64,000 nucleotides of DNA from Streptomyces sp. NBC_01244 (GTDB taxonomy: Bacteria > Actinomycetota > Actinomycetes > Streptomycetales > Streptomycetaceae). This document shows, in pieces, positions 29,826-46,220 of the stretch; within the stretch, counting starts at the first letter, position 1, and each line of letters starts with the position of its first letter. The notes under the pieces are model-generated. The model was not told the origin of the DNA. It saw nothing but the letters and a program-made list of their open reading frames with translations, and searched no databases. The stretch covers positions 8,680,001 to 8,744,000 of the forward strand of contig NZ_CP108488.1 of NCBI RefSeq assembly GCF_035987325.1, in the 5' to 3' direction. The translations under genes and the position numbers were made by a program.

Positions 29826-30440
29826 ATGCCAAACGGTTTCACGGGCGTCCCGCCCACCACCCTCGCCGACCTCCTCGGGCGCGAGCAGGTCATGGACATC
29901 GGCATCCGCCCGCTGTGGGACGCCCCGCGCGTCGCGGGACCCGCGTACACGGTGCGGTGCGAGCCCGGGGACAACCTGATGCTGCACGCGGCCATCTACC
30001 GCGCCGAGCCCGGCTCGGTCATCGTCGTGGAATCGGGCGACCTGGACCACGCGCTCGCCGGCGGCAACGTGTGCGCGGTCGCCCAGCGGCGCGGCATCGC
30101 CGCGTTCGTGCTGGACGGGCTGCTGCGCGACCTCGGGGAGGTGCGCGAAGCGGGCTTCCCGGTCTTCGCCCGCGGAGTCGTCCCCATCCCGGGCGCCAAG
30201 AAGAAGCTCGGCTCGCTCGGTGGCCCGGTCCGGGTCGGCGGCGTGAGCGTGCACCCCGGTGACATCGTGGTCGCCGACGAGGAGGGCATCGTGGTCACCC
30301 CGGCCGCCCGGCAGGAGGAGATCCTGAGCGCCGCCCTGGACAGGCTGGCCAAGGAGGCCGGGCAGTCCCTGGATGCCTGGGAGGAGCAGCACCGCGCCCG
30401 CGTCGAGAAGGCGTTGGGCGGCCTCGGCTTCACCGGCTGA
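29826..30440 (+). CDS. RraA-like / 4-hydroxy-4-methyl-2-oxoglutarate aldolase-fold protein
   Basis: A 204-residue protein of the RraA/HMG-aldolase fold. Motifs: TTLADLLGREQVMDIGIRPL, the substrate loop GDNLMLHAAIYRAEPGSVIV, AGGNVCAVAQRRGIAAFVLDG-type region (metal and substrate Asp near VLDGLLRD), and PGDIVVADEEGIVV. Family members are pyruvate-type aldolases or RNase E inhibitors; Streptomyces copies are often misnamed dimethylmenaquinone methyltransferases. The ATG at 29826 follows GAGAAAAGGA. It stands alone between the 7-bp repeat and the universal stress gene. Confidence 0.85.
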   Translation: MPNGFTGVPPTTLADLLGREQVMDIGIRPLWDAPRVAGPAYTVRCEPGDNLMLHAAIYRAEPGSVIVVESGDLDHALAGGNVCAVAQRRGIAAFVLDGLLRDLGEVREAGFPVFARGVVPIPGAKKKLGSLGGPVRVGGVSVHPGDIVVADEEGIVVTPAARQEEILSAALDRLAKEAGQSLDAWEEQHRARVEKALGGLGFTG

Positions 30441-30596
30441 CCGCACGTGCGCCGGGCCCCCGCGTCAGGGACCCGTCAGGGCTTCCGCGTTCCACGTCAG
30501 GGCTCTGTCAGAAGTCCGCCGGGGGAGGGGCGAACGCCCCGTCGCCGTCGTTTCCTTGAGGCGACGGAGCGGCAGCGGACGGGGAGGACGGCCACG

Positions 30597-31124
30597 TTGC
30601 GGGGACGAGTGGTGGTGGGGGCGTACGGATCCCTCGGGAGCCTGACGGCATTGCACGCGGCGCACGCCGAGGCCCGGGCGCGGGAGGCGGAACTGCGGGT
30701 CGTACTGGCCTGGCAGCCGCCGCTCGGCGGCCTGGGCGCCCGGCGCGGCGGGGGAGGGACCGCGCTGCTCACCGCCTCGCGGGACGCGGCGGTCGAGCGG
30801 TTGCGGGAGGTCCTCGACACCGCCTTCGGGGGTGCCCCGCCGGGCGTGACCCTGGCCGGGCTGGTGGTCATGGGCACCCCGGGCGCTGCCCTGGTGGGCG
30901 AGGCCCGGGACCCCGGCGACCTGCTGGTGGTGGGTACGGGACCGCGCGGCCCCCTGCTGCGAGCCCTGCGGCCCTCGGTGTCCCGGTACTGCCTGGCGCA
31001 CGCCCCCTGTCCGGTGCTGGCCGTGCCGCCCGGCCCGCTGCGGGCCGACCTGAACGCCGTACGCCGCCGCATCGTGTGGCGTCGGACCCTGGACGCGGGA
31101 GACCTGGTCAGACGGGCGGCGTGA
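30597..31124 (+). CDS. Universal stress protein (UspA family)
   Basis: A 175-residue single USP domain: RVVVGAYGSLGSLTALHAAH at the start, ARDPGDLLVVGTGPRGPLLR and SRYCLAHAPCPVLAVPP at the end. The glycine loop VGTGPRGPLLRALRPSVS is the ATP-binding motif in slightly degenerate form. I chose TTG 30597, 10 bases after GGGGAGGA, because the fold begins right there; GTG 30609 is an alternative. The longer frame to 30447 would add an unstructured Arg-rich tail. USP proteins act in the cytosol under stress. Confidence 0.78.
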   Translation: MRGRVVVGAYGSLGSLTALHAAHAEARAREAELRVVLAWQPPLGGLGARRGGGGTALLTASRDAAVERLREVLDTAFGGAPPGVTLAGLVVMGTPGAALVGEARDPGDLLVVGTGPRGPLLRALRPSVSRYCLAHAPCPVLAVPPGPLRADLNAVRRRIVWRRTLDAGDLVRRAA

Positions 31125-31165
31125 CCCGGCCACGTGATCCGGCCACGTGATCCGGTCGCGTGATC
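31125..31165. repeat. Short tandem repeat after usp gene
   Basis: Three imperfect units of ccggccacgtgat lie directly after the stop codon and lead into the hairpin at 31160. Confidence 0.5.
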
Positions 31166-31202
31166 CGGCCCCGGCCGCGTCACGCGACGGGGGCCGGATC
31201 AC
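31160..31202. terminator. Bidirectional hairpin between usp and the urease/amt operon
   Basis: A perfect 13-bp stem (gtgatccggcccc / ggggccggatcac) with a 17-base loop sits between the convergent usp and amt genes. It probably ends the ten-gene urea operon. Confidence 0.7.
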
Positions 31203-31237
31203 CTGGTGCGGCCGTGGTCAGCCGTACTCAGCCGTGC

Positions 31238-32680
31238 TCAGCCGCGGTCGTCGCCGCCCGTCCGGTCGCCCCCGCTCTGCCGGTCGCCGCCGCTCTGCGC
31301 ACTCGTCAGCAGGACCTCGCGCAGCCGGGCGACCAGGGCGGAGGCGCTCTCCGGCTCCTCCTCGGCCCCCTTGGCCCGGGAATCGTCGGTCGTCAGCTGC
31401 TCCAGGTTGTCGGAGAGGGCGTCGGCGTAGGCCTGCTCCTTCTCCACCATTCCGCCGGGCTGGCGCAGCCCGATGGTGACCTCGATGGCCTTGCCGATCA
31501 GTGCGGTCATCACGAAGGAGTACAGGCCGAGCACCACCGTGGCGGTGAGCTGCTTGCTCAGCAGGTCCCAGGAGCCGCCGTAGAAGAGGCCCTTGTGGCC
31601 CGTCAGGGTCCCGGTCGCGCAGAGGCCGGCCATGACCATGCCGACGATGCCGCCCCAGCCGTGGATGCCGACGACGTCCAGGGTGTCGTCCACGCCCAGC
31701 CGGTACTTCCAGCTGATCGCGAACGCGCAGCTCAGCCCGGCGAGGAAGCCGATGACGGTGGCCCATACCGGGCTCACCCCGCCGGCCAGCGGGGTCATGG
31801 CCACCAGGCCCGTGACGGCGCCCATGCACATGTCGAGCAGGCCGACCTGCCGGGTGCGCCACCAGCTGGTCACCGCCCAGCCGGCCATCGCCGCACCCGC
31901 CGCGAGCTGGCTGTTGAGGAAGGCCATCGCCGCGCCGCCCGGGGTCTCCAGGGAGGAACCGGTGTTGAAGCCGAACCAGCCGAACCACATGAGCGACAGC
32001 CCGATGACCACGAGCGGCAGGTTGTGCGGCCGGATGCCCTGGCGGTCGAAGTCCGCGCGCTTGCCCGCGACGATGGCCAGGGCGAGTCCGGCGGCCCCCG
32101 ATCCGATCTCCACGACGGTGCCGCCGGAGAAGTCGACGGCGCCGAGCTGCTTGGCGACCCAGCCGGCCGGGTCGAACACCCAGTGGGCCATGGGGATGTA
32201 GACCAGCAGGGTCCAGGCGATGACGAAGGCGATCCAGCCGCCCATCTTCGCGCGGCCCGCGATGGAGCCGGCGATCAGGGCCACGGTGACGACCGCGAAG
32301 GACAGGTGGAAGACCACGAAGGTGACCGTGGGCACGGAGCCGGTCAGCGACCGGGCATCGATCCCGCGCAGGAAGGCGTGGTCGAGCGTGCCGATGACGC
32401 CGAGCCCGCCGGCATCGGGGCCGAAGGCCAGGGAGTAGCCGATCGCGAACCAGAGCACGGTGACGATCACCATGCAGAAGAAGATCATCTTCAGCATGGC
32501 GACGATCTGGCCGGTGCGGACCATACCGCCGTAGAAGAAGGCCACTCCGGGAGCCATCAGCAGCACCAGGGCCGTGGCCATCATCAGCCAGGACGCGTTG
32601 CCGGAGTCGGCGACGGCGGGTGCGGCGGCGGGTGCGGCGGAGACCGCCGCTACGGCGGCGGCAATCGTGTGCGCGGTCAC
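31238..32680 (-). CDS. amt: Ammonium channel of the Amt/Mep/Rh family, second of a tandem pair
   Basis: A 480-residue membrane protein with 11 predicted helices, entry motif MAPGVAFFYGGMVRTG, the signature HNLPLVVIGLSLMWFGWFGF and HGWGGIVG. The second pore His is present (His340, GIHGWGG). The first is replaced by Glu191 (GGTVVEIGSG), where E. coli AmtB has His168. The last 80 residues are cytosolic, acidic, and end in a GGDR repeat. Its start overlaps the end of the other amt gene by 4 bp (ATGA). It is the last gene of the urea/urease operon, so it likely moves ammonium made by urease. Confidence 0.93.
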   Translation of the reverse strand: MTAHTIAAAVAAVSAAPAAAPAVADSGNASWLMMATALVLLMAPGVAFFYGGMVRTGQIVAMLKMIFFCMVIVTVLWFAIGYSLAFGPDAGGLGVIGTLDHAFLRGIDARSLTGSVPTVTFVVFHLSFAVVTVALIAGSIAGRAKMGGWIAFVIAWTLLVYIPMAHWVFDPAGWVAKQLGAVDFSGGTVVEIGSGAAGLALAIVAGKRADFDRQGIRPHNLPLVVIGLSLMWFGWFGFNTGSSLETPGGAAMAFLNSQLAAGAAMAGWAVTSWWRTRQVGLLDMCMGAVTGLVAMTPLAGGVSPVWATVIGFLAGLSCAFAISWKYRLGVDDTLDVVGIHGWGGIVGMVMAGLCATGTLTGHKGLFYGGSWDLLSKQLTATVVLGLYSFVMTALIGKAIEVTIGLRQPGGMVEKEQAYADALSDNLEQLTTDDSRAKGAEEEPESASALVARLREVLLTSAQSGGDRQSGGDRTGGDDRG

Positions 32681-34050
32681 TTGTCACGCTCTCGTCGGTC
32701 CAGCACGGATACGATTTCGGCGAGCAGCGCGGCGTCCTGCTGCTCCGCCCCGTCCTTGGAGGCGCCCACCGTGGCGGGCTCGCGGGCCGGGGCCGCGGCT
32801 CCGCCGATGCGGTCGCGGATCTCGTCCAGGGTCTCGTTGTCGTAGGCGACCTCCTCCTCCCGGCCGGGTACGTTCTCGTACTCCTCGGAGGCGCGGAAAC
32901 CGACGGCCTTGTCGATCACCTTGGCGATGAGCCAGGTCATGGCGAAGGCGAAGGAGCCGACGGCCAGGACGGCGACGGCCTGACGCCAGAGCTGGTCGAG
33001 GCCGCCCCCGTAGAAGAGGCCCTTCTTGCCGCTCATCGCGGCCGTGGCGAAGAAGCCGATGGAGAGGACGCCAACGATGCCGCCCCAGCCGTGCACGCCG
33101 ACCACGTCGAGCGTGTCGTCGACGCCGATCTTGAACTTCATGTTGATGGCGAAGCAGCAGACCACACCGGCGGTGAAGCCGATGATCAGCGCTCCGAGCG
33201 GGGAGACCTCGCCGCAGGCGGGGGTGATGGCCACCATGCCGGCGACCGCCGCCGAGGCCACGCCCAGCATCTCCACGTGGCCCAGACGCCACTTCTCGAT
33301 GATCGGCCAGCCGATCATCGCGCCCGCGGCGGCGAGTTGGGTGTTGAAGAAGGTGGTCGGGGCGCTGCCCTCGACCTGGAGCGCGGAGCCCGCGTTGAAG
33401 CCGAACCAGCCGAACCACAGCAGCGCCAGACCGATGATGACCAGGGGCAGGTTGTGCGGGCGGATCGTCTCGCGCTCGAAGTCCTTGCGCTTGCGCAGCA
33501 CGATGGCCACCGCGAGGCCCGAGGCCCCCGAGCTGAGCTCGACCGGCAGACCGCCGGCGTAGTCGAGAGCGCCCAGGGACTTGTTGATCCAGCCGTCGGG
33601 GGCGAACACCCAGTGCGCGGTGGGCACGTAGACCAGCATCGTCCAGGCGACGACGAAGACCAGCCACCCCTTCATGGTGGCGCGGCCCGCGATCGAGCCG
33701 CTGATCAGCGCCACCGTGATGATCGCGAAGGACATCTGGAAACAGGCGAAGATCACGGTCGGGATGGAGCCGTGCAGGGAGTCCATCCCGATGCCGCGGA
33801 AGAAGGCGTGGTCGAGATTGCCGATCATGCCGCCGCCGGAGTCCTTGCCGAAGGCGAGGGAGTAACCGACGGCGACCCACAGGATGGTCACCAGCGACAG
33901 GCAGGCGAAGCTCATCTTGAGCATCACCAGCACGTGCTTGGTCTTGACCATGCCCCCGTAGAAGAAGGCGAGGCCGGGGGTCATCAGCAGCACCATGGCG
34001 GTGCTCGCCATCATCCAGGCGGTATTACCCGTGTCGTAGCCACTGGGCAT
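32677..34050 (-). CDS. amt: Ammonium channel of the Amt/Mep/Rh family, first of a tandem pair
   Basis: A 457-residue Amt protein. It has TPGLAFFYGGMVKTKHVLVM, HNLPLVIIGLALLWFGWFGF, and His320 in GVHGWGGIVG, but Glu171 (GGLPVELSSG) in place of the first pore His. Its similarity to the downstream gene suggests tandem duplication. I chose ATG 34050 after GAGAGAG: upstream residues of the longer frame are not membrane protein-like. It lies 47 bp downstream of ureD. No glnK or glnD gene is adjacent, unlike the usual Streptomyces amtB-glnK-glnD operon, so PII control is not indicated here. Confidence 0.93.
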   Translation of the reverse strand: MPSGYDTGNTAWMMASTAMVLLMTPGLAFFYGGMVKTKHVLVMLKMSFACLSLVTILWVAVGYSLAFGKDSGGGMIGNLDHAFFRGIGMDSLHGSIPTVIFACFQMSFAIITVALISGSIAGRATMKGWLVFVVAWTMLVYVPTAHWVFAPDGWINKSLGALDYAGGLPVELSSGASGLAVAIVLRKRKDFERETIRPHNLPLVIIGLALLWFGWFGFNAGSALQVEGSAPTTFFNTQLAAAGAMIGWPIIEKWRLGHVEMLGVASAAVAGMVAITPACGEVSPLGALIIGFTAGVVCCFAINMKFKIGVDDTLDVVGVHGWGGIVGVLSIGFFATAAMSGKKGLFYGGGLDQLWRQAVAVLAVGSFAFAMTWLIAKVIDKAVGFRASEEYENVPGREEEVAYDNETLDEIRDRIGGAAAPAREPATVGASKDGAEQQDAALLAEIVSVLDRRERDK

Positions 34051-34097
34051 GTGTGGAGCTCTCTCTGGTCGTGAACAGGCGGGAGGGGTGGGGGAGT

Positions 34098-35153
34098 TCA
34101 GGTCTTGCGCAGGTCCGGGGAGGGTACGCCGATCAGCCTGCGCCGCACCGCGTCCCAGACGGCCCCGAGCGCCAGGGTCACGGCCTCGGTGTGCTCGCCG
34201 AGCACCCGCACCCAGGCCCCGCACTCCTGCGGCAGCACGCTGACCCCGTACGGGAGTCCGCGTCCGGCCAGGGTCTCGTGGAGCAGGTCGGCGAGCTCGC
34301 GGGCGGGGGCGAGCGGGCTGACCGCGAAGAAGCAGGCCATCACGGAATGACCGGCCAGCACGGCGGGCCCGTCGATGGAGCGGTCGTCGACGGAGCGGTC
34401 GTCGACGGAGCGGTCGTCGACGGAGCGGCCGTCGACGGAGCGGCCTCGGACCCCCTCGGCCCCGCCCGGTTCCAGCCGTACGGTGTCCAGTGCCACCAAC
34501 TCGCCGCTCGGTCGGCGCAGTTCGAAATCGGAGGCGAAGACCTGATAGGCGTTGCGCTCCCCGTGCGCGAGCCGGCCGGACAGGACGGTCTCGCTCGCCA
34601 GCACGGTGGCCGTGGGGTCGGCGGTGACCACCGTGCGCTGGTAGAAGCGGGAGTCGACGTACGGGATGACCGGGTCCGGCAGGTACTCCACGTACGCGTC
34701 CGGGCCGGCGGTCAGGAAGGTCTGCAGGACGGCGTAGTCGTGCTCCATCCGGTAGACCTTGGTGGCCGCCTGGGTGGTCACGTGCCCCGAGGTGCCGGGG
34801 CCGAAGGACAGGTCGGTGCGCAGCCGGTCGGCCTGGACGACCCCGCCGCCCGTGGACATCAGGAAGGTGATGGGCAGGTCGGGGCGGTGCGGGTCGAAGT
34901 AGAGCGGCCGCATGATCTGGAGCGGGGACTTCTGGTAGTGCCGCACCAGCTCGGTCCGGTCGCCGACCCGCTCGAAGCCCAGCTCCAGCAGGCCGACCTT
35001 GCCGGGGCGCCCGACACCGAGGGTGTCGGGCACCGAGGAGTGCCGCAGGACCTCCAGGGGGACGCGCGGCGGTTCGTAGTGCGCGGCCTCCAGGCGTGCG
35101 GGCGGCAGGAGGGTGCGGGGCGGAGTGCGGGGCGGGTGCGCCACTGCGCTCAC
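34098..35153 (-). CDS. ureD: Urease accessory protein UreD
   Basis: A 351-residue urease chaperone with typical UreD features: LGVGRPGKVGLLELGFER, LMSTGGGVVQADRLRTDL, TTQAATKVYRM and YLPDPVIPYVDSRFYQ. UreD docks on apo-urease and, with UreF and UreG, guides nickel and CO2 to the active site. The start GTG overlaps the ureG stop as GTGA. About residues 236-261 are an acidic repeat of the DRSVD type encoded by five 15-bp units, absent from other UreD proteins I know; it probably forms a flexible loop. The rest looks intact. Confidence 0.92.
   Translation of the reverse strand: MSAVAHPPRTPPRTLLPPARLEAAHYEPPRVPLEVLRHSSVPDTLGVGRPGKVGLLELGFERVGDRTELVRHYQKSPLQIMRPLYFDPHRPDLPITFLMSTGGGVVQADRLRTDLSFGPGTSGHVTTQAATKVYRMEHDYAVLQTFLTAGPDAYVEYLPDPVIPYVDSRFYQRTVVTADPTATVLASETVLSGRLAHGERNAYQVFASDFELRRPSGELVALDTVRLEPGGAEGVRGRSVDGRSVDDRSVDDRSVDDRSIDGPAVLAGHSVMACFFAVSPLAPARELADLLHETLAGRGLPYGVSVLPQECGAWVRVLGEHTEAVTLALGAVWDAVRRRLIGVPSPDLRKT
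34371..34445. repeat. Five-unit 15-bp minisatellite inside ureD
   Basis: Five consecutive units of gtcgacggagcggtc, with single-base variants, lie inside ureD. Fifteen bases equal five codons, so gain or loss of units leaves the frame intact. Confidence 0.9.
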
Positions 35154-35773
35154 GCCGGCACCCGGCGGAAGGACTCGATGAAGTTGGCCACGTCCTCCAG
35201 GCCCTGCCCGGTCAGGCAGTTGGTCAGGACCACGGGGCGCCCCTCGCGCACGCGGTGCGCGTCGGACTCCATGACGTTGATGTCGCAGCGGACGTACTGG
35301 GCGATGTCGATCTTGTTGATCACGAGCATGTCGGACTCGGTGATGCCCGGGCCGCGCTTGCGGGGCATCTTCTCGCCCTCGGCGGTGTCCAGGACGAAGA
35401 GGAAGAGGTCGACCAGGACGGGGCTGAAGGTGAGGGTGAGGTTGTCGCCGCCCGACTCGTAGAGCAGGGTGTCGACATCGGGGAACCGCTCCAGCATTTC
35501 GGCGCCCGCGGCCAGGTTCATCGTCGGGTCGTCGCGCACGGCGGTGTGCGGGCAGGCGCCGGTCTCCACGCCCACGACGCGCTCGGGGTCGAGCACCCCG
35601 GCCAGGGTGCGGCGGACCTGGCGGGCGTCCTCCTGGGTGTAGATGTCGTTCGTGATCACGGCGGGCCGGTGGCCGCGCGCGATGAGCACCGGCACCAGGG
35701 CCTCGATCAGCGCCGTCTTGCCGGAGCCGACGGGGCCGCCGACGCCGACGCGCAGGACGTTGTCCTCGGTCAT
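35150..35773 (-). CDS. ureG: Urease accessory GTPase UreG
   Basis: A 207-residue SIMIBI-class GTPase that powers nickel delivery to urease. P-loop GGPVGSGKT (12-20), the nickel-binding CPH motif in ETGACPHTAVRDD, SGGDNLTLTFSP and DMLVINKIDIA. I chose ATG 35773; an in-frame GTG at 35782 is possible. The usual His-rich N-terminal stretch of some actinobacterial UreG proteins is absent here, which makes the His-rich CbiX-like protein upstream more noteworthy. Located between ureF and ureD. Confidence 0.94.
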   Translation of the reverse strand: MTEDNVLRVGVGGPVGSGKTALIEALVPVLIARGHRPAVITNDIYTQEDARQVRRTLAGVLDPERVVGVETGACPHTAVRDDPTMNLAAGAEMLERFPDVDTLLYESGGDNLTLTFSPVLVDLFLFVLDTAEGEKMPRKRGPGITESDMLVINKIDIAQYVRCDINVMESDAHRVREGRPVVLTNCLTGQGLEDVANFIESFRRVPA

Positions 35774-35831
35774 CAAAGTCACACACCTTGGGTAAAAGAC
35801 GGCTTGGGGAAAGGAGCGGAGTTGGGGGACG

Positions 35832-36563
35832 CTAGGTCGCGAACAGCCGTGCCTCGGCCCGCTCATGACGGCCCGACATCACATCGGCCATCGGAACGCA
35901 TCCGCCGAGATCGGCGAGTTCACGGCACAGGGCCGCCCCCGCCACCTCCTCGATGACGGGTGCGATCCCGCGCAGCACCACCTGCGCCTTGCGGTGGTCG
36001 GTGAGCCGCAGCCGCAGCGCGGCCCCGGTGAAGCTCGCCGAGTAGGCGAACAGGTCGCTCACGACGGCCTGTTCGGCCGGGACCCCGGCGGCCGCGTAGG
36101 CGACCCCGGCGGCCACGGCCTGCGAGCCCGGCGCCCGCTTGGCGGCCACGAGCTCCGCGTACCGCTCCAGCGGCTCGCCGCCGACGCACTCGCGGGCGAG
36201 GTCCAGCAGCTGGCGGCCGGTGCGGGTGGCGGCGCGGCGCAGCCCCTCGTTCAGCTTGGCCGCGTTCAACCGCCGGTCGGTCTCGGCCAGGGCCTCCCAG
36301 TCGCCGGCCACTGCGGCCCCGTGGGCCAGCGCCAGCGCGGTGGCGTCGGAAGGCCCCACCGAATGCCGCAGCAGATCGGCCAGCAGGACCGGCACGCCCT
36401 CGGGGGTCACGGCCTTGGCCTGGGCGTACCCCTCCAGGCCGTGGGAGAGGGTGTAGAAGCCGCTGGGGAAGGCCGAGTCGGTGAGCTGGAGGCTGACCAG
36501 CAGGGCCCGTACCGGCGTCACGGCCGCGGGGCTGGCCACGGCGGAGTTGGCGGCAGTGCTCAT
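35832..36563 (-). CDS. ureF: Urease accessory protein UreF
   Basis: A 243-residue all-helical urease chaperone: [20 protein letters not shown] is the diagnostic UreF motif, followed by [14 protein letters not shown] and [18 protein letters not shown]. UreF bridges UreD and UreG in the maturation complex. Its start overlaps the end of ureC by 4 bp. The 58-bp gap to ureG is the largest within the ureC-to-ureD run. Confidence 0.94.
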
Positions 36564-38284
36564 GCCAGGTAGAACAGGTGGTTCAGGGGCAGTTCGCGGG
36601 CCGGCTCGATGGTGGCGGGCACCCCGTCGAGGGTGACCTTGTAGGTCTCCGGGTCGACGGCGATGACCGGGAGGGCGTCGTTGCGGACCATGTGCTGCTT
36701 GCCGACGGTGCGGCAGTGCCTGACCGGCAGGACCTTGCTGTCGAGGCCCAGCTTCTGCGGTACGCCGAGATCGATCGCGGCCTGCGACATGAAGGACACC
36801 CGGGTGGCCTGCTTGGCCTTGCCGTACGCGCCGAACATCGGCCGGTAGTAGACCGGTTGCGGGGTCGGCAGCGAGGCGTTGGGGTCACCCATCAGCGCCC
36901 AGTTGATCAGCCCGCCCTTGATGACCATCTTCGGCTTGGCGGCGAACGAGCCGATCGGCCACAGCACGACGTCGGCGAGCTTGCCCGTCTCCAGGGAGCC
37001 GATGTGCTCGGCGGTGCCCGTGGCGATCGCCGGGTTGATCGTGATCTTGGCGAGGTAGCGCAGGGCGCGGAAGTTGTCGTTGCGCTCGGTGTCGCCGTCG
37101 AGCTTGCCGCGCTGGTCCTTGCAGTGGTGCGCGGTCTGGAAGGCGCGGGTCCAGGACTCGCCGATGCGGCCCATGGCCTGGGAGTCGGAGGAGAAGATCG
37201 AGATGACCCCCTCGTCGTGCAGCACCGTCTCGGCGGCGATCGTCTCGGCGCGCACGCGCGAGTCCGCGAAGGAGACGTCCTCCGGGATGTCGTGCGACAG
37301 GTGGTGACAGACCATCACCATGTCGAGCAGCTCGTCGACCGAGTTCACCGTGTACGGCAGCGTCGGGTTGGTGGAGGACGGCAGGACGTTGGGCTCGCCG
37401 GCCACCCGCATGATGTCGGGGGCGTGGCCGCCGCCCGCGCCCTCGGTGTGGAAGGTGTGGATGGTGCGCCCGTCGATGGCGGAGCGGGTGTCCTCGAAGA
37501 AGCCGGACTCGTTCAGGGTGTCGGTGTGCACCGCGACCTGCACGTCGTAGGTGTCGGCCACGTCCAGGGCGCGGCTCAGCGCGGCCGGGGTGGTGCCCCA
37601 GTCCTCGTGCACCTTCAGGCCGCAGACGCCCGCCTCGACCTGCTCAATGAGGGCCTCCGGCAGCGAGCCGTTGCCCTTGCCCAGCAGACCCACGTTGACC
37701 GGCAGGTCCTCGGACGCCTGGTACATGCGGCCGATGTTCCACGGACCCGGGGTGCACGTGGTGCCGTTGGTCCCGTCGGAGGGGCCGGTGCCGCCGCCGA
37801 TGAGGGTGGTGATGCCGTTGGACAGGCCGTGCTCGGCCTGCTGCGGGGAGATGAAGTGGATGTGGCTGTCGATGCCGCCGGCCGTGGCGATCATGTGCTC
37901 GCCGGAGATGACCTCGGTGCCGGGCCCGATGACCAGCTTGGGGTGGACCCCGGACTGGGTGTGCGGGTTGCCGGCCTTGCCGAGACCCGCGATGAAACCG
38001 TCCTTGATGCCGAGGTCGCCCTTGACCACACCCAGGATCGCGTCCATGACCACCACGTTGGTGATGACCAGGTCCAGGGCCCCCTGCAGGCTCGTGGCCT
38101 GCGGGTCCTGCGCCATGCCGTCGCGGATGCCCTTGCCGCCGCCGTAGACGGCCTCGTCGCCGTAGTGGCCCTCGTTGTGGTCCTTCTCGACCTCGACGAC
38201 CAGGTTGGTGTCCGCCAGGTGGAAGCGGTCGCCGACGGTCGGCCCGAACAGGTCGGTGTACTGCTTGCGGCTCAGGACAGCCAT
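36560..38284 (-). CDS. ureC: Urease alpha subunit (catalytic)
   Basis: The 574-residue catalytic subunit hydrolyses urea to ammonia and carbamate. All nickel ligands and catalytic residues are present at a constant offset of seven from Klebsiella urease: His141, His143 ([10 protein letters not shown]), carbamylated Lys224 ([10 protein letters not shown]), His253, His279, flap Cys326 and His327 (MVCHHLS), and Asp367 (SSDSQAMGR). It should be fully active when nickel is supplied. It overlaps ureF by 4 bp and lies 2 bp after ureB. Confidence 0.97.
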
Positions 38285-38286
38285 CG

Positions 38287-38844
38287 CTACTTGTCGCCCT
38301 TCTTGGAGGTCTTGGCCTTCTTGGCGGCCGCGGTCTTGGCGGGAGCCTTGGCGGCTGGCTTGGCCGCCGGCTTGGAGGCGGGCTTTGCGGCCTGCTTCGA
38401 GGCCCGCTTCGAGGGGGCCTCCACGGCCTGCGCGGCGGCCTGCGCGGCCGCGGCCTGCTGCGCCGACTCCGCCCGGGCTCCCAGGAATCCGAGCTCGACG
38501 GCCCGGTTCATGGCCCGGACGCGGGTGTCGGTGGAGCCGAGCCCGCCGTTCACGAGGGAGCTGAAACCGATCAGCCGGCCGTGGCCGCTGTACGCGGTGA
38601 GTTCCACCTCGCGGGTGTCGCCCGGCTCGAAGCGGACACCGGTGCCGGCGGGGAGGTCGAGGTGCATGCCGTAGGCGGCGTTGCGGTCGAAGTCGAGGGC
38701 TCGGTTGACCTCGAAGAAGTGGTAGTGCGAGCCGACCTGGACCGCACGGTCACCGGTGTTGGAGACGGTGACCTTGGCCTTGCGGCGGCCGGCGTTGATC
38801 TCTACGGTGCCTTCGCCGTAAAGGTATGTGGCGCCACCTGACAT
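38287..38844 (-). CDS. ureB: Urease beta subunit with Lys/Ala-rich histone-like tail
   Basis: Residues 1-115 are a normal UreB ([54 protein letters not shown]). Stand-alone UreB proteins are usually about 100-130 residues; this one has 185. The extra part begins with an Ala/Gln helix ([19 protein letters not shown]) and ends in [22 protein letters not shown] repeats and [12 protein letters not shown]. It resembles the tails of histone H1 and of HupS-type actinobacterial nucleoid proteins. The tail could bind nucleic acid, polyphosphate or the cell surface, or be a neutral expansion. It is 23 bp downstream of the CbiX-like gene. Confidence 0.93.
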
Positions 38845-38867
38845 GGTGGTACTTCCCTTCCTTCGGA

Positions 38868-39752
38868 TCAGTGGGGGGAATGGCCGTGCGGGTGGCCGTG
38901 ACCCCGGCCGTCCGCGCGGCGGTGGCTCTCGCCGTGTGCGTGGCCGTGCGCGTGTGTGTGGTGGGTGTCCGCGTCCGTGTCCGAGTGGTCGTGGTCGCCG
39001 CCCGGGCCGTGGGAGTGCGCGTACCCGTGCCCGTGCTCGGCGTCCAGCCCCTCGGCCACGCCGTCCTGCCCGTGGGCCAGCCGGTGCAGCGCCTCCTGCG
39101 CGCGGGCCCGTACGACCTGGGCGATCGCCGCACCGGACAGCAGCGGACCGGTGTCCAGGACCCCGGCCGGAAGCTCGGCCGGCGGGGCGAACGCGGCCCG
39201 GACCAGGGCGATGTGGCCGGCGCCGAGGCGGCGGCAGCGCTCCGCACCCTCCGCGAGGTCCGGGTCACCCCCGTCGAAGGCGACCTCGACCCAGCGGTGC
39301 TGCCCGTACTGGCGCACCAGCCGGGCCACCCGGAACAGGTCCGCGTCCTCGAAGGGTCCCGCGGCGGGCGCGGTGACCAGGACGGCGGAGGTGTCGGGCG
39401 CCTCGCGCACCGCCTTGAGGGCGGCGGTACGGAGCCACGCGGTCAAGTGGTCCACCGTGGCGAAGGGCGGCGCCAGCACGAGCCGCCCGACCCCCTCCTC
39501 CCGGCCCAGCCAGCGCAGGGCGCGGGCGCAGTCGGCGATCAGCCCGGGGTCGCGCCCCAGCGTCATCGGGACCACGCACACCGGCTCGGGCGAGGCGGTG
39601 AGCGCCGCCCGCACGGCTTCGGCCAGCGGCCGGCCCGGGTGCACGGCGCCTGCCGCGGTGCCACCCTCGTGACCGCCGGCCAGGATGACCGTGGCCGCCG
39701 ATTCCGGTGCCCGGCCGGGCCGTTCGGGCCGTTCGGGTGCGATGGCCGTCAC
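38868..39752 (-). CDS. CbiX/SirB-like chelatase-family protein with His-rich tail, likely nickel protein for urease
   Basis: A 294-residue protein. Residues 20-235 match the two-lobed CbiX/SirB class II chelatase fold: [14 protein letters not shown] (His28 at the usual metal-binding place), [40 protein letters not shown] and [20 protein letters not shown]. Residues 240-294 hold about 18 His among Gly, Ala and Asp ([17 protein letters not shown] is part). Known CbiX proteins insert cobalt, and a relative inserts nickel into sirohydrochlorin. Here the gene lies between ureA and ureB, 3 bp after ureA, and no ureE exists in the operon. UreE also ends in a His-rich tail, so I infer a nickel store or donor for urease. 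Confidence 0.82.
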
Positions 39753-39755
39753 CGC

Positions 39756-40061
39756 TCAGGCGCCGACGGGGTCGTGGCAGGAGACGAGCTTGGTGCCGTC
39801 CACGAAGGCGGCCTCGACCTGGAGCAGCGGAAGCATCTCCCGCACGCCCTTCATGACATCGGCGGCGGAGACGATCTGCTTGCCGAGCTCCATGCACTCG
39901 GCGACGGTCCTGCCGTCGCGGGCGCCTTCGAGGATGCCCTCGCTGATCAGGGCGCAGGCCTCGCTGTAGTTGAGCTTGACGCCCCGGTCCCGCCGCTTGC
40001 GGGCCAGGTCGGCCACGACGTAGATCCAGAGCTTGTCCATCTCACGGGGAGCGAGATTCAT
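39756..40061 (-). CDS. ureA: Urease gamma subunit
   Basis: A 101-residue structural subunit with the standard features LAPREMDKLWIYVVADLARK, LNYSEACALISEGILEGARD and VEAAFVDGTKLVSCHDPV. It packs against UreC in the urease trimer. It starts the structural part of the operon, with the CbiX-like gene following after 3 bp. A 120-bp gap with a short gttgccagagct repeat separates it from the urea transporter upstream. Confidence 0.96.
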   Translation of the reverse strand: MNLAPREMDKLWIYVVADLARKRRDRGVKLNYSEACALISEGILEGARDGRTVAECMELGKQIVSAADVMKGVREMLPLLQVEAAFVDGTKLVSCHDPVGA

Positions 40062-40181
40062 CGGTCACTCACTTTCGGCTCTCAAGGTGGTTCACGTGCT
40101 GCTGTTGCCAGAGCTGTTGCCAGAGCTGTCGCCGAAGCCGTTGTCACGGCTGTTGCCGCGGGGGCTTCGGCCGGGGTGGTG

Positions 40182-41147
40182 TCAGGTCCGTTGCAGCCGG
40201 GGGATCTGGGGTACCGCGGCGACGAAGACGACCGTGGTCAGGACGAACGGCCAGGTGAAGGTGTGGCCGCCGAACGGGTCGAAGAAGGCGGTCATCGCGG
40301 CCGTGAGCCCGGTCGCCGCCGCGGCTCCCAGGACGGCGAACGCGAAGCTCCAGCGGGACCGGACGATGAACACTCCGCACAGGGCCATCGCGACGAGCAC
40401 GCTGCTGTAGCCCATGAGCCCCTGCGAGACGCCATCGGACGGTGAACCCATCGCCCAGGCAACGAAGATGGCCGTGACGCTGCCGACGCAGGCCATGACC
40501 CCGGCGACCCGGCTGGCCACGAAGATGCCGGCGAGGAAGATCAGGCCGACGAACCACTGCGGCATGAAGAAGATCTGGCCGACGTTGGCGAAGAAGGCAC
40601 GCCACAGCTGTCCCCAGTCGAGGGCGGTGGTCCCGCCGGCGGCCGCGGGCAGCGCCGCCAGATCGGGGCCGGTGTGCCACACCCGGGAGAAGCTGGGCGC
40701 CGCGATGGTCATCACGCTCGCGATGATGCAGAACGGCGCGGTGAACGTGGGGATGTTCCAGGTGCCGAGGATCGTCGCCAGCGCCGAGGTGACGACCACC
40801 ACGGTGATGCTGCCGCCGATCGCGAGCAGCAGCGTGGACAGGTGGTCCCACCCGAGGAAGACGGCGAAGCCGAGCGAGACGAGGGTGCCGTTGAAGCCGC
40901 GCAGCCCGGCCGAGACGATCTCTCGGTCGATGCCGAACGCGTAGGCGGTGGCGGTGCCGACGACCGCGCCGAGGAGGCCGTAGAGGGCGTACTGCCAGCC
41001 GGCGGCGGCCAGGGCGGCGAGGAAGAAGATCCCGGTGATCGCGCTCGGCATGAAATCGACCTGGGCGACGCCACGCAGGACTTCCTGAATGAAGCTCGCG
41101 GGTTGAGCGGGAGCCTGGCGTGCGGGCTCCGTTGCCAAGGCCTGCAT
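40182..41147 (-). CDS. Urea transporter (UT/Yut family)
   Basis: A 321-residue membrane channel with ten predicted helices. Each half has the urea-transporter hallmarks: GLRGFNGTLVSLGFAVFLGW with the TWNIPTFTAPF signature in the first half and GLMGYSSVLVAMALCGVFI plus FTWPFVL in the second. UT proteins are trimeric channels that let urea flow through the membrane. It is the first gene of the leftward urea operon, 120 bp before ureA. The upstream region 41148-41369 is shared with a divergent transporter gene. Confidence 0.92.
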   Translation of the reverse strand: MQALATEPARQAPAQPASFIQEVLRGVAQVDFMPSAITGIFFLAALAAAGWQYALYGLLGAVVGTATAYAFGIDREIVSAGLRGFNGTLVSLGFAVFLGWDHLSTLLLAIGGSITVVVVTSALATILGTWNIPTFTAPFCIIASVMTIAAPSFSRVWHTGPDLAALPAAAGGTTALDWGQLWRAFFANVGQIFFMPQWFVGLIFLAGIFVASRVAGVMACVGSVTAIFVAWAMGSPSDGVSQGLMGYSSVLVAMALCGVFIVRSRWSFAFAVLGAAAATGLTAAMTAFFDPFGGHTFTWPFVLTTVVFVAAVPQIPRLQRT

Positions 41148-41369
41148 TTCATTCTCCCATGTGCAAAAAGAGAGGGCCCTGAAGGGCCCGTGAATCGGCG
41201 GTGCGTTGACGACGACAGTACCGGTGAACCGGGGTAATTCCGCCTGGAGATGGGCGTGTCGGGGGAAGCGGGGGAATGCGGCCGGGTTGTCATAAATGTG
41301 TTCGTCGTTCCCGGTCCTGTGGGCAGAAATAGGATCGGAATATCGAATCTAGAATGAGGGGGGAAGAGG
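41148..41369. promoter_or_regulatory. Divergent promoter region of the urea operon and TDT transporter
   Basis: 222 bp without a gene, more A/T-rich than its surroundings (ttgtcataaatg, ggaatatcgaatctagaatg). It must hold the promoter of the ten-gene urea operon. A small hairpin (agggccctgaagggccc) lies at about 41173. I could not identify clear GlnR or nickel-regulator (Nur) boxes by eye. Confidence 0.45.
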
Positions 41370-42401
41370 GTGTTCGCCGAGCCCGGAAGGGTCAATGGCC
41401 CCGCCCGATGGCGCGCCGCAGCGGCCGGAACCGCCGCGGTGGTGTCCCTTGGCGGGGTGCGATTCCTTGTGGGTGCCCGGTGGTGGGCCGAGCTGTCCCC
41501 GGCCGCCGGCGCCGCCGTCATGGCGGCCGGGATCATCTCGGCAGGCCTGCACCTGATCGGCCGCGACACGCTGTCGATCGCCGCGCTGGCCGTCTCCGCC
41601 GCGCTGTGGCTGCTGCTCGCCGCCGAGTTCGCCGCCCGGCTCCTGGGTGACCGGCGCCGGTTCCGCGCCGAGGCCGACACCCCGGCGGCCCTCACCGCCG
41701 TGGCCGCCGCGACCGTGCTGGGCACCCGGCTCTCCCTCCTCGGATGGCAGCCCGTGGCCCTCGGGCTACTGGCGCTGGCCGCCGCGCTCTGGCCGGGGCT
41801 GATGGTCGCCGTACTGCGGCACTGGGGCTACCGCATGCCCGGCGCGGCGTTCCTCGTCTGCGTGGCCACCCAGGGGCTCGCCGTCCTGGCGGGCGTCCTG
41901 GCCGCCCCCACCGGCCACGACTGGCTCGGCCGGGCCGCGCTGGCCGCCTTCTGCCTGGGCTTGCTGCTCTACGCCGAGGCCCTCGTACGCTTCGACTTCC
42001 GCCAGGTCGTCTCGGGCGCGGGCGACCACTGGGTGGCCGGCGGGGCGCTCTCCATCACCGCCCTCGCCGGATCCGGGCTCACGGCGTCACCGTTGTGGAC
42101 GGGGTGGGTGCACGCGGGACTGCGTACCGTCACCCTGGCGACCCTCGGCCTCTCCCTGGCCTGGTACGCCGTGCTGCTCGCCGCCGAGGGGGTCCGGCCG
42201 CGCCCCCGCTACGACATCCGGCGCTGGTCGAGCGTCTTCCCGCTCGGCATGACGGCGACCGCCTGCCTCTCGGCGGCCGCCCCGACCGGGGTGGCGTGGC
42301 TGCGGCCCCTCGGCACCGTGCTGCTCTGGGTGGCGGTCGGGGCCTGGGTGTTCACCTTTGCGGCCCTCCTCGTGGAGCGCGGGCCCCGTCCGCGCAAATG
42401 A
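41370..42401 (+). CDS. TDT-family (TehA/SLAC1-like) transporter
   Basis: A 343-residue membrane protein with about ten helices, closing with the family marker RRWSSVFPLGMTATACLSAA. This is typical of the tellurite-resistance/dicarboxylate transporter family, which includes TehA, Mae1 and the anion channel SLAC1. Probable role is export or flow of a small anion. GTG start after GGGGGAAGAGG. It is divergent from the urea transporter. No tellurite genes are nearby, so the tellurite label is only a family name. Confidence 0.8.
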   Translation: MFAEPGRVNGPARWRAAAAGTAAVVSLGGVRFLVGARWWAELSPAAGAAVMAAGIISAGLHLIGRDTLSIAALAVSAALWLLLAAEFAARLLGDRRRFRAEADTPAALTAVAAATVLGTRLSLLGWQPVALGLLALAAALWPGLMVAVLRHWGYRMPGAAFLVCVATQGLAVLAGVLAAPTGHDWLGRAALAAFCLGLLLYAEALVRFDFRQVVSGAGDHWVAGGALSITALAGSGLTASPLWTGWVHAGLRTVTLATLGLSLAWYAVLLAAEGVRPRPRYDIRRWSSVFPLGMTATACLSAAAPTGVAWLRPLGTVLLWVAVGAWVFTFAALLVERGPRPRK

Positions 42402-42456
42402 GCCGTGTTCCCGCCGGGGGAGGAATGCGGCGAACGGAAGACCGTAGCGGAAACAC

Positions 42457-42475
42457 CTCCGCCGAAAGGGCGGAG
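42457..42475. terminator. Hairpin between convergent TDT and YoaK genes
   Basis: ctccgcc-gaaag-ggcggag forms a 7-bp stem in the 215-bp convergent gap (42402-42616). No gene is visible in this gap. Confidence 0.45.
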
Positions 42476-42616
42476 TCGAATTTCCGCTGCCGAAAGGCCG
42501 CCCTCATGGCGCCCCCACCGGAATACCGTTGCGCGCGGCGGGGAAGGGCGTACGGCCATGGCGGCGGGCCCTGAATGCGAGCCGATGCGCACCGGAGGCG
42601 GACCCCGCTCCTGCGC

Positions 42617-43327
42617 CTACCGCCCGGTGCCGTCCCACCGCGGGGAGAGGGTGACGCAGGCCAGCAGAGCCACAGCCAAGACCAGGGCCCACAGCGCACC
42701 ATGACGAAGCGTCAGGAAACCTCCGGCGAGGGCCCCGAGCAGCAGGGCCGCGACCGTCACGAGGCGGCGCAGCGGCCCCGGCCCCCAGGGATCGGCCGCC
42801 AGACCGGTCAGGGCCCTGGTGACGACGGTGGTGGTCAGATCGGGGACGGCGAGCCGGTGCACGACGGCGTTCTGCAGGCCCATGCCGAGGGCGAGCAGGG
42901 CGATGACGCCCGGCGGCCCGGCGCCGAGCACGGTCAGGGCGAGCGCCCCGCCCACCAAGACGGTCTGCACCGCCACCAGCGGAGCGAACATCTTGGCCGC
43001 CGCCGTGGTCCGCCGCAGCCGCCCGGCGGCGGCCGCCCCGGCCAGGAAGGCGCCGACGGCCAGCAGGGAGTCCGGGGCCGACAGGGAGCGGTCCCCGGCG
43101 ATCGCGAAGCCGAGGAAGACCACGTTGCCCGTCATATTGGCCACGAAGACGTGACCGAGGCCCAGGTAGCTCACCGCGTCGACCACACCGCTGACGAAGG
43201 TGAGGACGATCAACAGGGGCGGCAGCACCCCGTGGGGAGATTCCGCGCCGGCCGGCTCCGGCGGGAACAGCCGCGCGGCCAGCGGGCGCAGGACCCCGCG
43301 CCGCCGCCGGGGTGGGGTGGAGGTCAT
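42617..43327 (-). CDS. YoaK family (DUF1275) membrane protein
   Basis: A 236-residue protein with six predicted helices and the YoaK motif series VLTFVSGVVDAVSYLGLGHV, FVANMTGNVVFLG and GLQNAVVHRLAVPDLTTTV. The biochemical role of YoaK proteins is unknown. I chose ATG 43327, preceded by AGAGGT, because upstream residues are low-complexity. The gap to the next gene (43328-43581) holds purine-rich short repeats (agcggagcgggccgt) and no gene. Confidence 0.85.
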   Translation of the reverse strand: MTSTPPRRRRGVLRPLAARLFPPEPAGAESPHGVLPPLLIVLTFVSGVVDAVSYLGLGHVFVANMTGNVVFLGFAIAGDRSLSAPDSLLAVGAFLAGAAAAGRLRRTTAAAKMFAPLVAVQTVLVGGALALTVLGAGPPGVIALLALGMGLQNAVVHRLAVPDLTTTVVTRALTGLAADPWGPGPLRRLVTVAALLLGALAGGFLTLRHGALWALVLAVALLACVTLSPRWDGTGR

Positions 43328-43581
43328 GGGGTACCTCTGGTCATCGCGTGGGCCGGTCCGCGACGGGCGGGAGTGGGCCGTCGGGAGCGGAGCGGGCCGT
43401 TGGGAACGGAGCGGGCCGAGCCCCTGAAGAAGGCGGAGAGGAAGGGCGGTGGAGAGGAGGGGGTGGAGTGGAAGGGAGCTTCGTCCCCGGAATGCTAGCG
43501 ATGCCGGGAGCGTGCGAGGAGGAGCGACCCGGCGGCGCTCCCCGCCGCGGATCCAGGGGGCGCCGCGGGTAGGGTCGCCGC

Positions 43582-44016
43582 ATGGCCTACACGTTTCAGG
43601 TGACCGTGGACTCCGCGGCACCGCACGCCCTCGCCGACTGGTGGGCCGAGGCCCTCGGCTGGGAAGTCGAGCCCAGTGACGAGGAGTTCATCCGCGAGAT
43701 GATCGCCGTCGGACGGGCGACGGAGGAGGACACCACCACCCACCGGGGTGTCCTCGTCTGGAAGGCGGGCCAGGGGATCCGCCACCCCGAGGGCCTGGAG
43801 CGGGCGCCCCGCATCCTCTTCCAGTTCATCGAGGAGCCCAAGACCGTCAAGAACCGGGTCCACCTCGACGTTCGCACCGGGCAGGACGACCCGCGCGCGC
43901 TGGTCGAGCGGCTCCTCGCCAAGGGCGCCCGCCACCTGCACGAGGGCAGCCAGGGCCCCTTCGCCTGGACCACCCTCGCCGACCCCGAGGGCAACGAGCT
44001 GTGCGTCTCCCACTGA
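43582..44016 (+). CDS. VOC-family (glyoxalase-like) protein
   Basis: A 144-residue protein with two beta-alpha-beta-beta-beta halves: FQVTVDSAAPHALADWWAEA at the start, and RVHLDVRTGQDDPRALVERL then WTTLADPEGNELCVSH at the end. These are features of the glyoxalase-like VOC family common in actinobacteria. Metal-binding positions are only partly kept, so it may be a binding or resistance-like protein rather than an enzyme. The inverted-repeat element begins 30 bp after the stop. Confidence 0.85.
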   Translation: MAYTFQVTVDSAAPHALADWWAEALGWEVEPSDEEFIREMIAVGRATEEDTTTHRGVLVWKAGQGIRHPEGLERAPRILFQFIEEPKTVKNRVHLDVRTGQDDPRALVERLLAKGARHLHEGSQGPFAWTTLADPEGNELCVSH

Positions 44017-44046
44017 GTCTCCCGCCGGCCGCTCCCACCCCGCTCC

Positions 44047-44220
44047 AGGGCCTGTCGTCACACTCCCGTCTGCCTCGCGACGCCTGGCACGCGCTCTCGC
44101 CGCACCGGGCGAAAGCCAAGTACGTCCAGTACGCGGGCTTCCGCCCGGCACGCCGAGAGCGCGCACCAGACGCCGCGACGCCGCCCTTCGGGCGACGACG
44201 GGAGTGTGACGACAGGCCCT
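44047..44220. mobile_element. MITE-like element with perfect 24-bp terminal inverted repeats
   Basis: A 174-bp element. Its ends (44047-44070 and 44197-44220) are exact reverse complements over 24 bp, starting agggcctgtcgtcacact. Inside the ends the arms continue to pair imperfectly for about 30 bp more, so the whole can fold into a long hairpin. It encodes no transposase. It lies between the VOC gene and the next gene, 11 bases before its GTG start. No clear target duplication was found. Confidence 0.7.
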
Positions 44221-44231
44221 AGGCTGGACCC

Positions 44232-44936
44232 GTGAACGTCATCCTCTTCGGTGCGACCGGCATGATCGGCCGGGGCGTGCTGCGCGAGTGCCTGCGCGAC
44301 GATTCCGTCGAAAGCGTGCTCGCCGTCGGCCGCAGCCCCCTCGCCGTCACCCACCCCAAGCTGCGCGAGCTCGTCCGGGCGGATCCGACCGACCTGTCGG
44401 AGTCCGGCCTGGACCTGGCCTCGTACGACGCGTGCTTCTTCTGCCTGGGCATCTCCTCCTTCCGCATGAAGGAGGAGGAGTACCGGCGGATCACCTACGA
44501 CCTGACGCTCGCCGCGGCCCGCCCCCTCGCCGCCGCCAACCCGCGGCTGACCTTCGCCTACGTCTCCGGCGAGGGCACCGACAGCACCGAGAGCGGCCGC
44601 TCCATGTGGGCCCGGGTCAAGGGGAAGACCGAGAACGACCTGCTCAAGCTCCCCTTCGAGGCCTACATGTTCCGCCCCGGGATCGTGCAGCCGGACCGCG
44701 GCATTCCCTCCAAGACTCCGCTCTACCGCGCCGGGTACACCGTCACCGCACCGCTCTTCCCGCTCCTGCGGCGCTTCGCACCCCACCTCGTGACCACCAC
44801 CGGGGCGCTGGGCCGCGCCATGATCGCCGTCGCCGCGGCCGGGCCCGGCAACGAGGACACCCAGCGGATCCTGCGGCCGCGCGACATCAACAGGGTGGGC
44901 GGCCAGGGCCCGCGCGGAGCGTCGGACCTGGGGTAA
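44232..44936 (+). CDS. NAD(P)-binding Rossmann protein (atypical SDR)
   Basis: A 234-residue protein with the nucleotide-binding start NVILFGATGMIGRGVLRECL, followed by CFFCLGISSFRMKEEEYRRI, YVSGEGTDSTESGRSMWARV (with Lys in VKGKTEND) and AYMFRPGIVQPDRGI. This resembles the NAD(P)H-binding/epimerase-like group of atypical short-chain dehydrogenases. Substrate unknown. GTG start only 11 bases after the inverted-repeat element, so its promoter or ribosome site may lie in that element. Confidence 0.82.
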   Translation: MNVILFGATGMIGRGVLRECLRDDSVESVLAVGRSPLAVTHPKLRELVRADPTDLSESGLDLASYDACFFCLGISSFRMKEEEYRRITYDLTLAAARPLAAANPRLTFAYVSGEGTDSTESGRSMWARVKGKTENDLLKLPFEAYMFRPGIVQPDRGIPSKTPLYRAGYTVTAPLFPLLRRFAPHLVTTTGALGRAMIAVAAAGPGNEDTQRILRPRDINRVGGQGPRGASDLG

Positions 44937-45008
44937 CGGGCGGATATTCGGTTTCGGCCGGGGCCCTCCGACCCCGAGAATGAGGCATCTCGAACCGGGA
45001 GGAACCCC

Positions 45009-46220
45009 ATGAGCCAGGACCGCCTGACTCTGCACGACCTGATGCCCGCGCAGGCGCTGACCGAGGCCATCGACGCCGGATACGTGGCCCGCAAGGCACA
45101 CCCCGAGCTGCCGCTGTCCCTCTACACCTACACCCGGACCGCCCAGTACGAGCAGGTCTGGAACCAGGTCACCACGGTCTGCCGCGGACTCGTCGCCGAC
45201 GACGTCAGCGGCGAGGTCGTCGCGCTGCCGCTGCCCAAGTTCTTCAACGTCGGCGAGCACGAGGCCGGCCGGCCGTACGCGCCGGCCCTGCCCGACGAGC
45301 CGTTCGAGGTGTACGACAAGGTCGACGGCAGTCTCGGGGTGCTCTTCCACTACGCGGGCAAGTGGCGGGCCGCGTCCAAGGGTTCCTTCACCAGCACCCA
45401 GGCCGTCTGGGCGCAGCGCCGCCTCGACGGACGGGACACCTCCGGGCTGGTCCCCGGCACCACTTACCTCGCGGAGATCCTGTACCCGCAGAACCGCATC
45501 GTCGTGGACTACGGGGACCGCCGCGACCTGGTCCTGCTCGCCGCGTACGGAGCGGACGGCGCCGAGGTGCCGCTCGCGGAAGCCGCCGCGCACTGGGAGG
45601 GCATCGGCTCCGTGGTCACCGTGTGGCCCGCCATGCCGCTGGGCGAGCTGCTCGCGCTGACCGGGTCCAGCACCCTGCCGGGCGGCGCTCCCGCGACCGG
45701 CACCGACGCGGAGGGCTTCGTCCTGCGCTTCGCCTCGGGCGTCCGGGCCAAGGCCAAGATCGCCGAGTACGTACGCCTCCACAAGGTGCTCACCGGGGTG
45801 ACCGAGCGGGACATCTGGCGCGGCCACGGCATCCAGCGGTTCGCCGGCCTGCCCCTCAAGCAGCTCGCCCAGGGCCTGCACTGCACCGTCGCCGATATCG
45901 AGGCCTCGGGCGGCAAGCCGCTCGACGCGCTGCTGGAGCAGGTGCCCGACGAGTTCGACCACTGGGTGCGCTCGGTGATCGAACGCCTGGAGGCCGAGGC
46001 CGCGCTCCGTGAGCGCGCCATCGACGAGGCCTACGCCTCGCTGGCCCACCTGGCCGGCGACCGGGGCGCGTTCGCGCGCGCCGCCAAGACGACGATCCGC
46101 GACAGCGGGGTCCGCGGCGCGCTGTTCCAGCGCCTCGAGGGCAGGACCACCGAGCTCGTCACCTGGCGGCAGGTGCGACCCGAGGCGTCCGACCCCTTCA
46201 CGCACGACGAGGAGAACTGA
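45009..46220 (+). CDS. T4 Rnl1-like RNA ligase
   Basis: A 403-residue ATP-dependent RNA ligase. The adenylated Lys104 lies in motif I, YDKVDGSLGVLF. Further motifs: CRGLVADDVSGEVVALPLPK (upstream domain), YLAEILYPQNRIVVDYG (motif IIIa region), EGFVLRF (motif IV) and RAKAKIAEYVRLH (motif V). The N- and C-terminal parts match the phage T4 RNA ligase 1 group. It seals broken RNA with 3'-OH and 5'-phosphate ends in the cytosol. It is 4 bp upstream of a polynucleotide kinase-phosphatase gene that makes such ends. Confidence 0.9.
   Translation: MSQDRLTLHDLMPAQALTEAIDAGYVARKAHPELPLSLYTYTRTAQYEQVWNQVTTVCRGLVADDVSGEVVALPLPKFFNVGEHEAGRPYAPALPDEPFEVYDKVDGSLGVLFHYAGKWRAASKGSFTSTQAVWAQRRLDGRDTSGLVPGTTYLAEILYPQNRIVVDYGDRRDLVLLAAYGADGAEVPLAEAAAHWEGIGSVVTVWPAMPLGELLALTGSSTLPGGAPATGTDAEGFVLRFASGVRAKAKIAEYVRLHKVLTGVTERDIWRGHGIQRFAGLPLKQLAQGLHCTVADIEASGGKPLDALLEQVPDEFDHWVRSVIERLEAEAALRERAIDEAYASLAHLAGDRGAFARAAKTTIRDSGVRGALFQRLEGRTTELVTWRQVRPEASDPFTHDEEN

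Follow-up and report, generated by a model that had tools for sequence, protein, structure and literature searches.

A histidine-tailed protein with a predicted chelatase fold, encoded in actinobacterial urease operons, is a candidate nickel reservoir for urease

In the DNA analyzed here (the window, 64,000 nucleotides of Streptomyces sp. NBC_01244), a gene between ureA and ureB specifies a CbiX-like protein with a His-rich tail, for which we coined the label CbiXu. Our comparisons show that CbiXu is a conserved urease-operon gene, carried by some soil actinobacteria. The product probably stores or hands over nickel for urease and, with a probability of roughly 0.6, we regard it as a CbiX-derived urease accessory protein whose catalytic metal pair has been lost and which acts as a nickel reservoir and metallochaperone. 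Synteny, predicted fold, loss of the second active-site His, retention of the tail, and alternation with His-rich UreG proteins argue for this reading.

Results

The urease cluster and the CbiXu gene

The cluster lies on the minus strand in the order UT, ureA, CbiXu, ureB, ureC, ureF, ureG, ureD, followed by an ammonium-transporter-like open reading frame. Its features, with the basis of each assignment, are:

40182..41147, minus strand: UT, urea transporter, first gene of the cluster (PF03253)
39756..40061, minus strand: ureA, urease gamma subunit (PF00547)
38868..39752, minus strand: CbiXu, CbiX/SirB-fold urease-operon protein, 294 aa, GTG start (ORF, weak PF01903 match, predicted fold)
38871..39041, minus strand: C-terminal tail of CbiXu, residues 238-294, 18 His, beginning at a conserved stretch (conservation in set A1 and in 91 distinct proteins)
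38287..38844, minus strand: ureB, urease beta subunit, with a Lys/Ala-rich C-terminal tail (PF00699 and sequence)
36560..38284, minus strand: ureC, urease alpha subunit (PF00449/PF01979, TIGR01792)
35832..36563, minus strand: ureF (PF01730)
35150..35866, minus strand: ureG, retaining the CPH motif and lacking a His-rich extension at either end (TIGR00101)
34098..35126, minus strand: ureD, start not fixed (frame reading and syntenic matches of relatives to the frame)

The true ureG start probably lies inside the frame 35150..35866. We take 34098..35126 to be ureD from its place in the cluster, and the frame that follows it on the same strand (32677-34224) is presumed to be ammonium-transporter-like from its type of sequence. 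UreB extends past its conserved domain in a long Ala-/Lys-rich tail (window 38287-38478, minus strand). A match to the Rfam 5'-ureB sRNA (RF02514; window 37828-38129, plus strand; 62.6 bits, gathering threshold 40) is antisense to the 5' portion of ureC, and may simply mirror how conserved the alpha-subunit coding sequence is. A riboswitch search of window positions 30000-46000 returned nothing at E≤0.1.

CbiXu begins 3 bp past ureA and ends 23 bp ahead of ureB by ORF coordinates, which confirms the coordinates, strand and gaps of the original prediction. That prediction, made from the window alone, also described a two-lobed CbiX/SirB-type protein with His28, a tail of about 18 His, and a UreG without a His-rich N-terminus, and each of these descriptions agrees with what we found. 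Of the protein's 25 His, 18 fall within the final 57 residues, and Cys occurs only at positions 59, 75 and 173. The CbiX assignment is weak by its own sequence (17.9 bits against PF01903 in a Pfam profile search, below the curated cut-off of 22), but two further lines support it. PF01903 is matched at E≤0.01 by 20 of 30 A1 proteins, the window protein counted, and structure matches place the predicted fold in the two-lobed SirB/CbiK/CfbA chelatase class. Sequence comparison with solved structures gave no useful match. Long open frames in two genomes (G362 and G312) raised a candidate CbiXu-UreB-UreC fusion, which was rejected because ureB lies in another frame. The source genome holds three other CbiX/SirB genes, and a search at E≤0.5 found no second CbiXu copy. 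Public records name relatives "sirohydrochlorin chelatase" or "CbiX", a probable misannotation.

Synteny and distribution

All 29 relatives in a scan of named genomes lie beside ureA and/or ureB, with both neighbors present in 26 and the other three at contig ends; because the scan used peptide patterns drawn from CbiXu with its tail, it favors near, tailed relatives. Among 31 short loci from genome surveys, a set that includes the window's own and overlaps in many genomes with the scan, ureA and ureB are both present in 30, and the remaining locus is at a contig end. Of 297 genomes surveyed in the window's family, 67 match CbiXu at E≤1e-10, 54 strongly (E≤1e-21) and 13 weakly. Two strong matches (G299 and G324) are orphans that lack the tail, and the 10 kb fetched around them showed no urease genes; the three weak matches that were read (G303, G309 and G484) are all other CbiX relatives. 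A second actinobacterial family (f4), which appears to include Rhodococcus, Antrihabitans and Speluncibacter, has matches at E≤1e-15 in 24 of 211 genomes. The arrangement ureA-CbiXu-ureB occurs at 24 of 25 f4 loci, the other being at a contig end, and the 24 complete loci share the order ureA-CbiXu-ureB-ureC-ureF-ureG-ureD, as does a Streptomyces plasmid record. An Embleya plasmid (NZ_CP108777.1, locus L227) carries a piece of UT, CbiXu and ureB, with ureA and ureC unmatched in 10.6 kb, and is a possible remnant of the operon.

The His-rich tail and the active site

By a scripted count, each of the 91 distinct proteins extracted, among them the window's own, has at least six tail His (median 14); some ORF ends in this set are poorly placed, and it leaves out the tail-less orphans L100 and L101. 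This constancy indicates that the tail is no chance reading of GC-rich DNA. His240, His246 and His248 are invariant across the 30 rows of A1. L100 and L101 are relatives without the tail, and no urease genes were matched in the 10 kb fetched around them.

For the active site, CbiXu was compared with the source genome's three other CbiX/SirB genes and with L104 and L105, canonical-looking His-tailed CbiX proteins of the window's family that have both catalytic His residues and an MNCDxC motif; no urease genes were matched within the 5 kb fetched around either. Positions were mapped through sequence alone, by aligning L105 to SirB (5zt7) and CbiXu to L105. The His of HGTR, the His of HAKGDIP and the Glu of FIEL in L105 align with the corresponding residues of HGSR, HAKHDIP and FLEL in SirB, which we take to be His10, His76 and Glu43 of PMC11301274. 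That paper (PMC11301274) gives His10/His76 as the metal-binding pair of SirB; by alignment this pair, a mark of the SirB/CfbA class II chelatases, is not kept in CbiXu. The second His is absent, HAKGDIP being replaced by approximately GLIADCA in the window protein, and motif reading of the 91 distinct proteins found E, G, R, K or other residues at this position, with His in 1 of the 71 that could be read. The Glu-bearing stretch is shortened as well. His28 follows the first strand near the first catalytic His, with a shift of one residue in a gap-free alignment. Core residues invariant in the 30 A1 rows are Gly27-His28-Glu29, Cys59, Pro62 to Asp68, His102 and Cys173, although His28 is missing from L261 and L272 in the wider set. 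From the missing second His and the shortened Glu stretch we infer that canonical chelatase activity has been lost, and by its active site CbiXu is no standard CbiX.

UreE in the genome and in the class

The original prediction held that CbiXu replaces UreE, which it found missing from the operon. CbiXu has no match to UreE in Pfam or NCBIfam at E≤1. An ureE elsewhere in the genome, which the prediction named as evidence against itself, was sought through the UreE_N domain and was not found (best E 0.21). HypB gave no match above cut-off in the source genome. This genome (G000) has four ureC copies above cut-off, as against one CbiXu. The second operon with accessory genes (L047) encodes a His-rich UreG that might help the CbiXu operon in trans; the other two loci (L048 and L049) match ureA, ureB and ureC only, with no accessory gene in the 14 kb fetched.

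A class-wide sample of 296 genomes, presumably Actinomycetes and with the source genome included, places this absence in context. UreC is present in 121 (E≤1e-20), and 116 of these are without UreE; the five genomes with UreE_N above cut-off all bear UreC, in counts that rest on UreE_N and that a divergent UreE could escape. CbiXu matches occur in three of the 296, one of them weak and at a distance from the urease genes looked for, leaving two that carry the gene. Within the window's family, UreC is found in 285 of 297 genomes (E≤1e-50) and UreE_N in none of the 297 (E≤0.001). UreE is generally absent, whether or not CbiXu is present, and since most of the 116 also lack CbiXu, the gene fills no hole peculiar to this operon. 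The proposed association of CbiXu with the absence of ureE did not hold up in its simple form, the UreE-less state being the norm in the class sample. Of the replacement idea itself, the chelatase fold, the His tail, the urease linkage and comparative evidence for a nickel-reservoir role stand; the class-wide lack of UreE speaks against the substitution as first framed.

Alternation with His-rich UreG

CbiXu alternates with His-rich extensions at the N- or C-terminus of UreG, defined by thresholds of our choosing as two or more His ahead of the P-loop or three or more at the C-terminus. Across 125 operons with distinct UreC, such extensions occur in 0 of 64 with CbiXu, 0 of 5 with UreE and 54 of 56 with neither. 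The 125 derive from 139 rows by removal of 14 with identical UreC. A further 22 rows in which a script motif found no UreG, and five incomplete ones, were also dropped. All of these 22 but L013 and L014, which are fragments of L048/L049, were read again, together with L047 from outside the set: all 12 with neither gene reach the threshold by eye, seven of the 20 yielded no UreG, and the CbiXu-bearing L118 shows, in a frame that is cut short, a His-free start before the P-loop. L148 was scored as CbiXu-bearing by hand from its family-survey match, UreG starts were picked by a simple Shine-Dalgarno score, and L249 and L038 are one and the same contig. Among 23 further CbiXu operons of f4 (L250-L272), 22 are below threshold by reading and L272 has two His in the N-terminus of its UreG.

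Both exceptions with neither gene nor a His-rich UreG, L094 and L095, are closely related to CbiXu operons and represent two losses of CbiXu with no visible compensation in the operon; a scan of these loci for other His-rich proteins gave only readings judged out of frame. In the same urease clade, five CbiXu-less operons encode a UreG that starts with MHDP and has five or six His there. Elsewhere, C-terminal UreG His stretches occur in UreE-less actinobacterial operons, including L187 (up to 20 His), L194, L197, L198, L201, L202 and L225.

The rows are related, and Fisher tests were for this reason set aside as evidence. CbiXu changes three times on one UreC tree and four times on a wider one, both from quick searches with some long branches. 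In independent pairs, UreG shifts the opposite way in about one or two of the CbiXu changes, respectively, and never the same way, numbers that place significance out of reach of a sign test. The CbiXu-less lineage with His-rich UreG is nested in the CbiXu clade on the wider tree, and an AU test (p 0.293) does not separate this placement from a basal one, so that the change there may be a gain or a loss. The alternation is strong as a description and modest as statistics. Two CbiXu genomes (G387 and G399) have a single ureC match each (E≤1e-50, four best candidates scored), so that one cannot assume help there from a UreG encoded in a different operon.

Discussion

We propose that the C-terminal tail of CbiXu would gather Ni(II), and that its folded cleft, which bears a conserved Gly-His-Glu loop (27-29) as well as His102 and the PMTLGRD segment, could dock on UreG or pass nickel to it within a UreD-UreF-UreG-apo-urease complex. 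UreG, with its CPH motif, would then deliver the metal. CbiXu would in this way take the role played elsewhere by a His-tailed UreE or by a UreG that itself bears a His-rich extension. The identity of the metal as nickel, its transfer to UreG and the docking site are elements that we infer. Several observations weaken the reservoir reading: the counts are not independent, with few changes on the trees; the losses in L094 and L095 are uncompensated; ureases with neither gene are the class norm; L272 has two UreG His; the orphans L100 and L101 exist; the His-rich UreG of L047 could possibly help in trans; and His tails bind several metals.

It is also conceivable, if unlikely, that CbiXu is an assembly factor: its chelatase-like fold would attach to UreA/UreB or to the UreABC trimer and prepare apo-urease for activation by shaping it, the tail adding nickel only locally. 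The position of the gene in complete loci, between structural-subunit genes and outside ureF-ureG-ureD, would fit such a role, as would invariant core residues that lie apart from the tail. Alternation with His-rich UreG points instead to the tail, however, and ureases whose UreC is 74-86% identical manage without CbiXu (L090-L095 and L099).

Improbable in our estimation is a nickel buffer or sensor that guards the cell or tunes nickel-dependent genes without donating to urease. CbiXhp of Streptomyces seoulensis, reportedly the subject of a 2003 paper in FEMS Microbiol Lett, is said to be a metal-binding CbiX homologue that affects nickel superoxide dismutase expression, which would lend such a role a precedent and could lower the novelty of CbiXu; canonical-looking His-tailed CbiX proteins such as L104 and L105 also exist in the window's family, as distinct from CbiXu. 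The urease synteny argues against a buffer or sensor, and a search of the window with a Nur-box-like pattern, allowing up to two mismatches, found no site. Slightly less credible again is a working chelatase for sirohydrochlorin or another tetrapyrrole, placed in the operon by chance: the names in public records and the fold matches to SirB, CbiK and CfbA would suggest one, yet the second catalytic His is replaced, the Glu stretch is shortened, three further CbiX/SirB genes are present in the genome, and the linkage seen is with urease genes. Least credible of all is a dispensable passenger held by operon structure, as the close spacing of ureA ahead of ureB after the losses in L094 and L095 might hint, since CbiXu is conserved across two families, its tail is kept, and core residues are invariant in A1.

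Returning to the reservoir and metallochaperone reading, one of the closest known parallels is CbiX-L of Bacillus megaterium, a long-form cobaltochelatase that, like CbiXu, has two lobes and a long His-rich C-terminal region. According to PMC7689651, this region had been proposed to store and deliver metal. CbiX-L differs in keeping the N-lobe residues His14 and His79, in having an MXCXXC Fe-S motif where CbiXu has no Cys after residue 173, in the second His, which CbiXu lacks, and in its setting, CbiXu being the one found in urease operons. UreE shares with CbiXu a place in the urease operon and, often, a C-terminal His tail; the two have no sequence match, and none of the 50 best structure matches listed is a UreE. 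Our best reading is that CbiXu functions like UreE without being UreE, through a chelatase fold in which the metal-binding His pair is not kept. Within the literature searched, largely open-access and including PMC4531530, PMC2667541, PMC11301274, PMC7689651, PMC11534348, PMC2770081 and PMC7055735, we found no description of CbiXu.

According to Haas et al. 2009 (PMC2770081), His stretches occur in UreG where UreE is missing and were proposed to compensate, and two genomes, Frankia CcI3 being one such exception, had neither UreE nor a His-rich UreG; for these two HypB was suggested. The pattern described here extends that observation, with CbiXu carrying on a separate protein the stretch that UreE-less operons otherwise place on UreG.

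The maturation of urease is a textbook metallochaperone system. Nickel supply in bacteria without UreE has been explained mainly by His stretches of UreG, and CbiXu provides a conserved candidate for operons with neither, here in a genome without HypB above cut-off. We give even odds to a broader view, in which actinobacteria recruited a catalytically disabled chelatase as a dedicated metallochaperone and third route of nickel supply, and the His-rich segment tends to be kept in one place at a time, moving among UreE, the ends of UreG, and CbiXu. If true, a chelatase fold would have been turned into a protein-to-protein metal donor.
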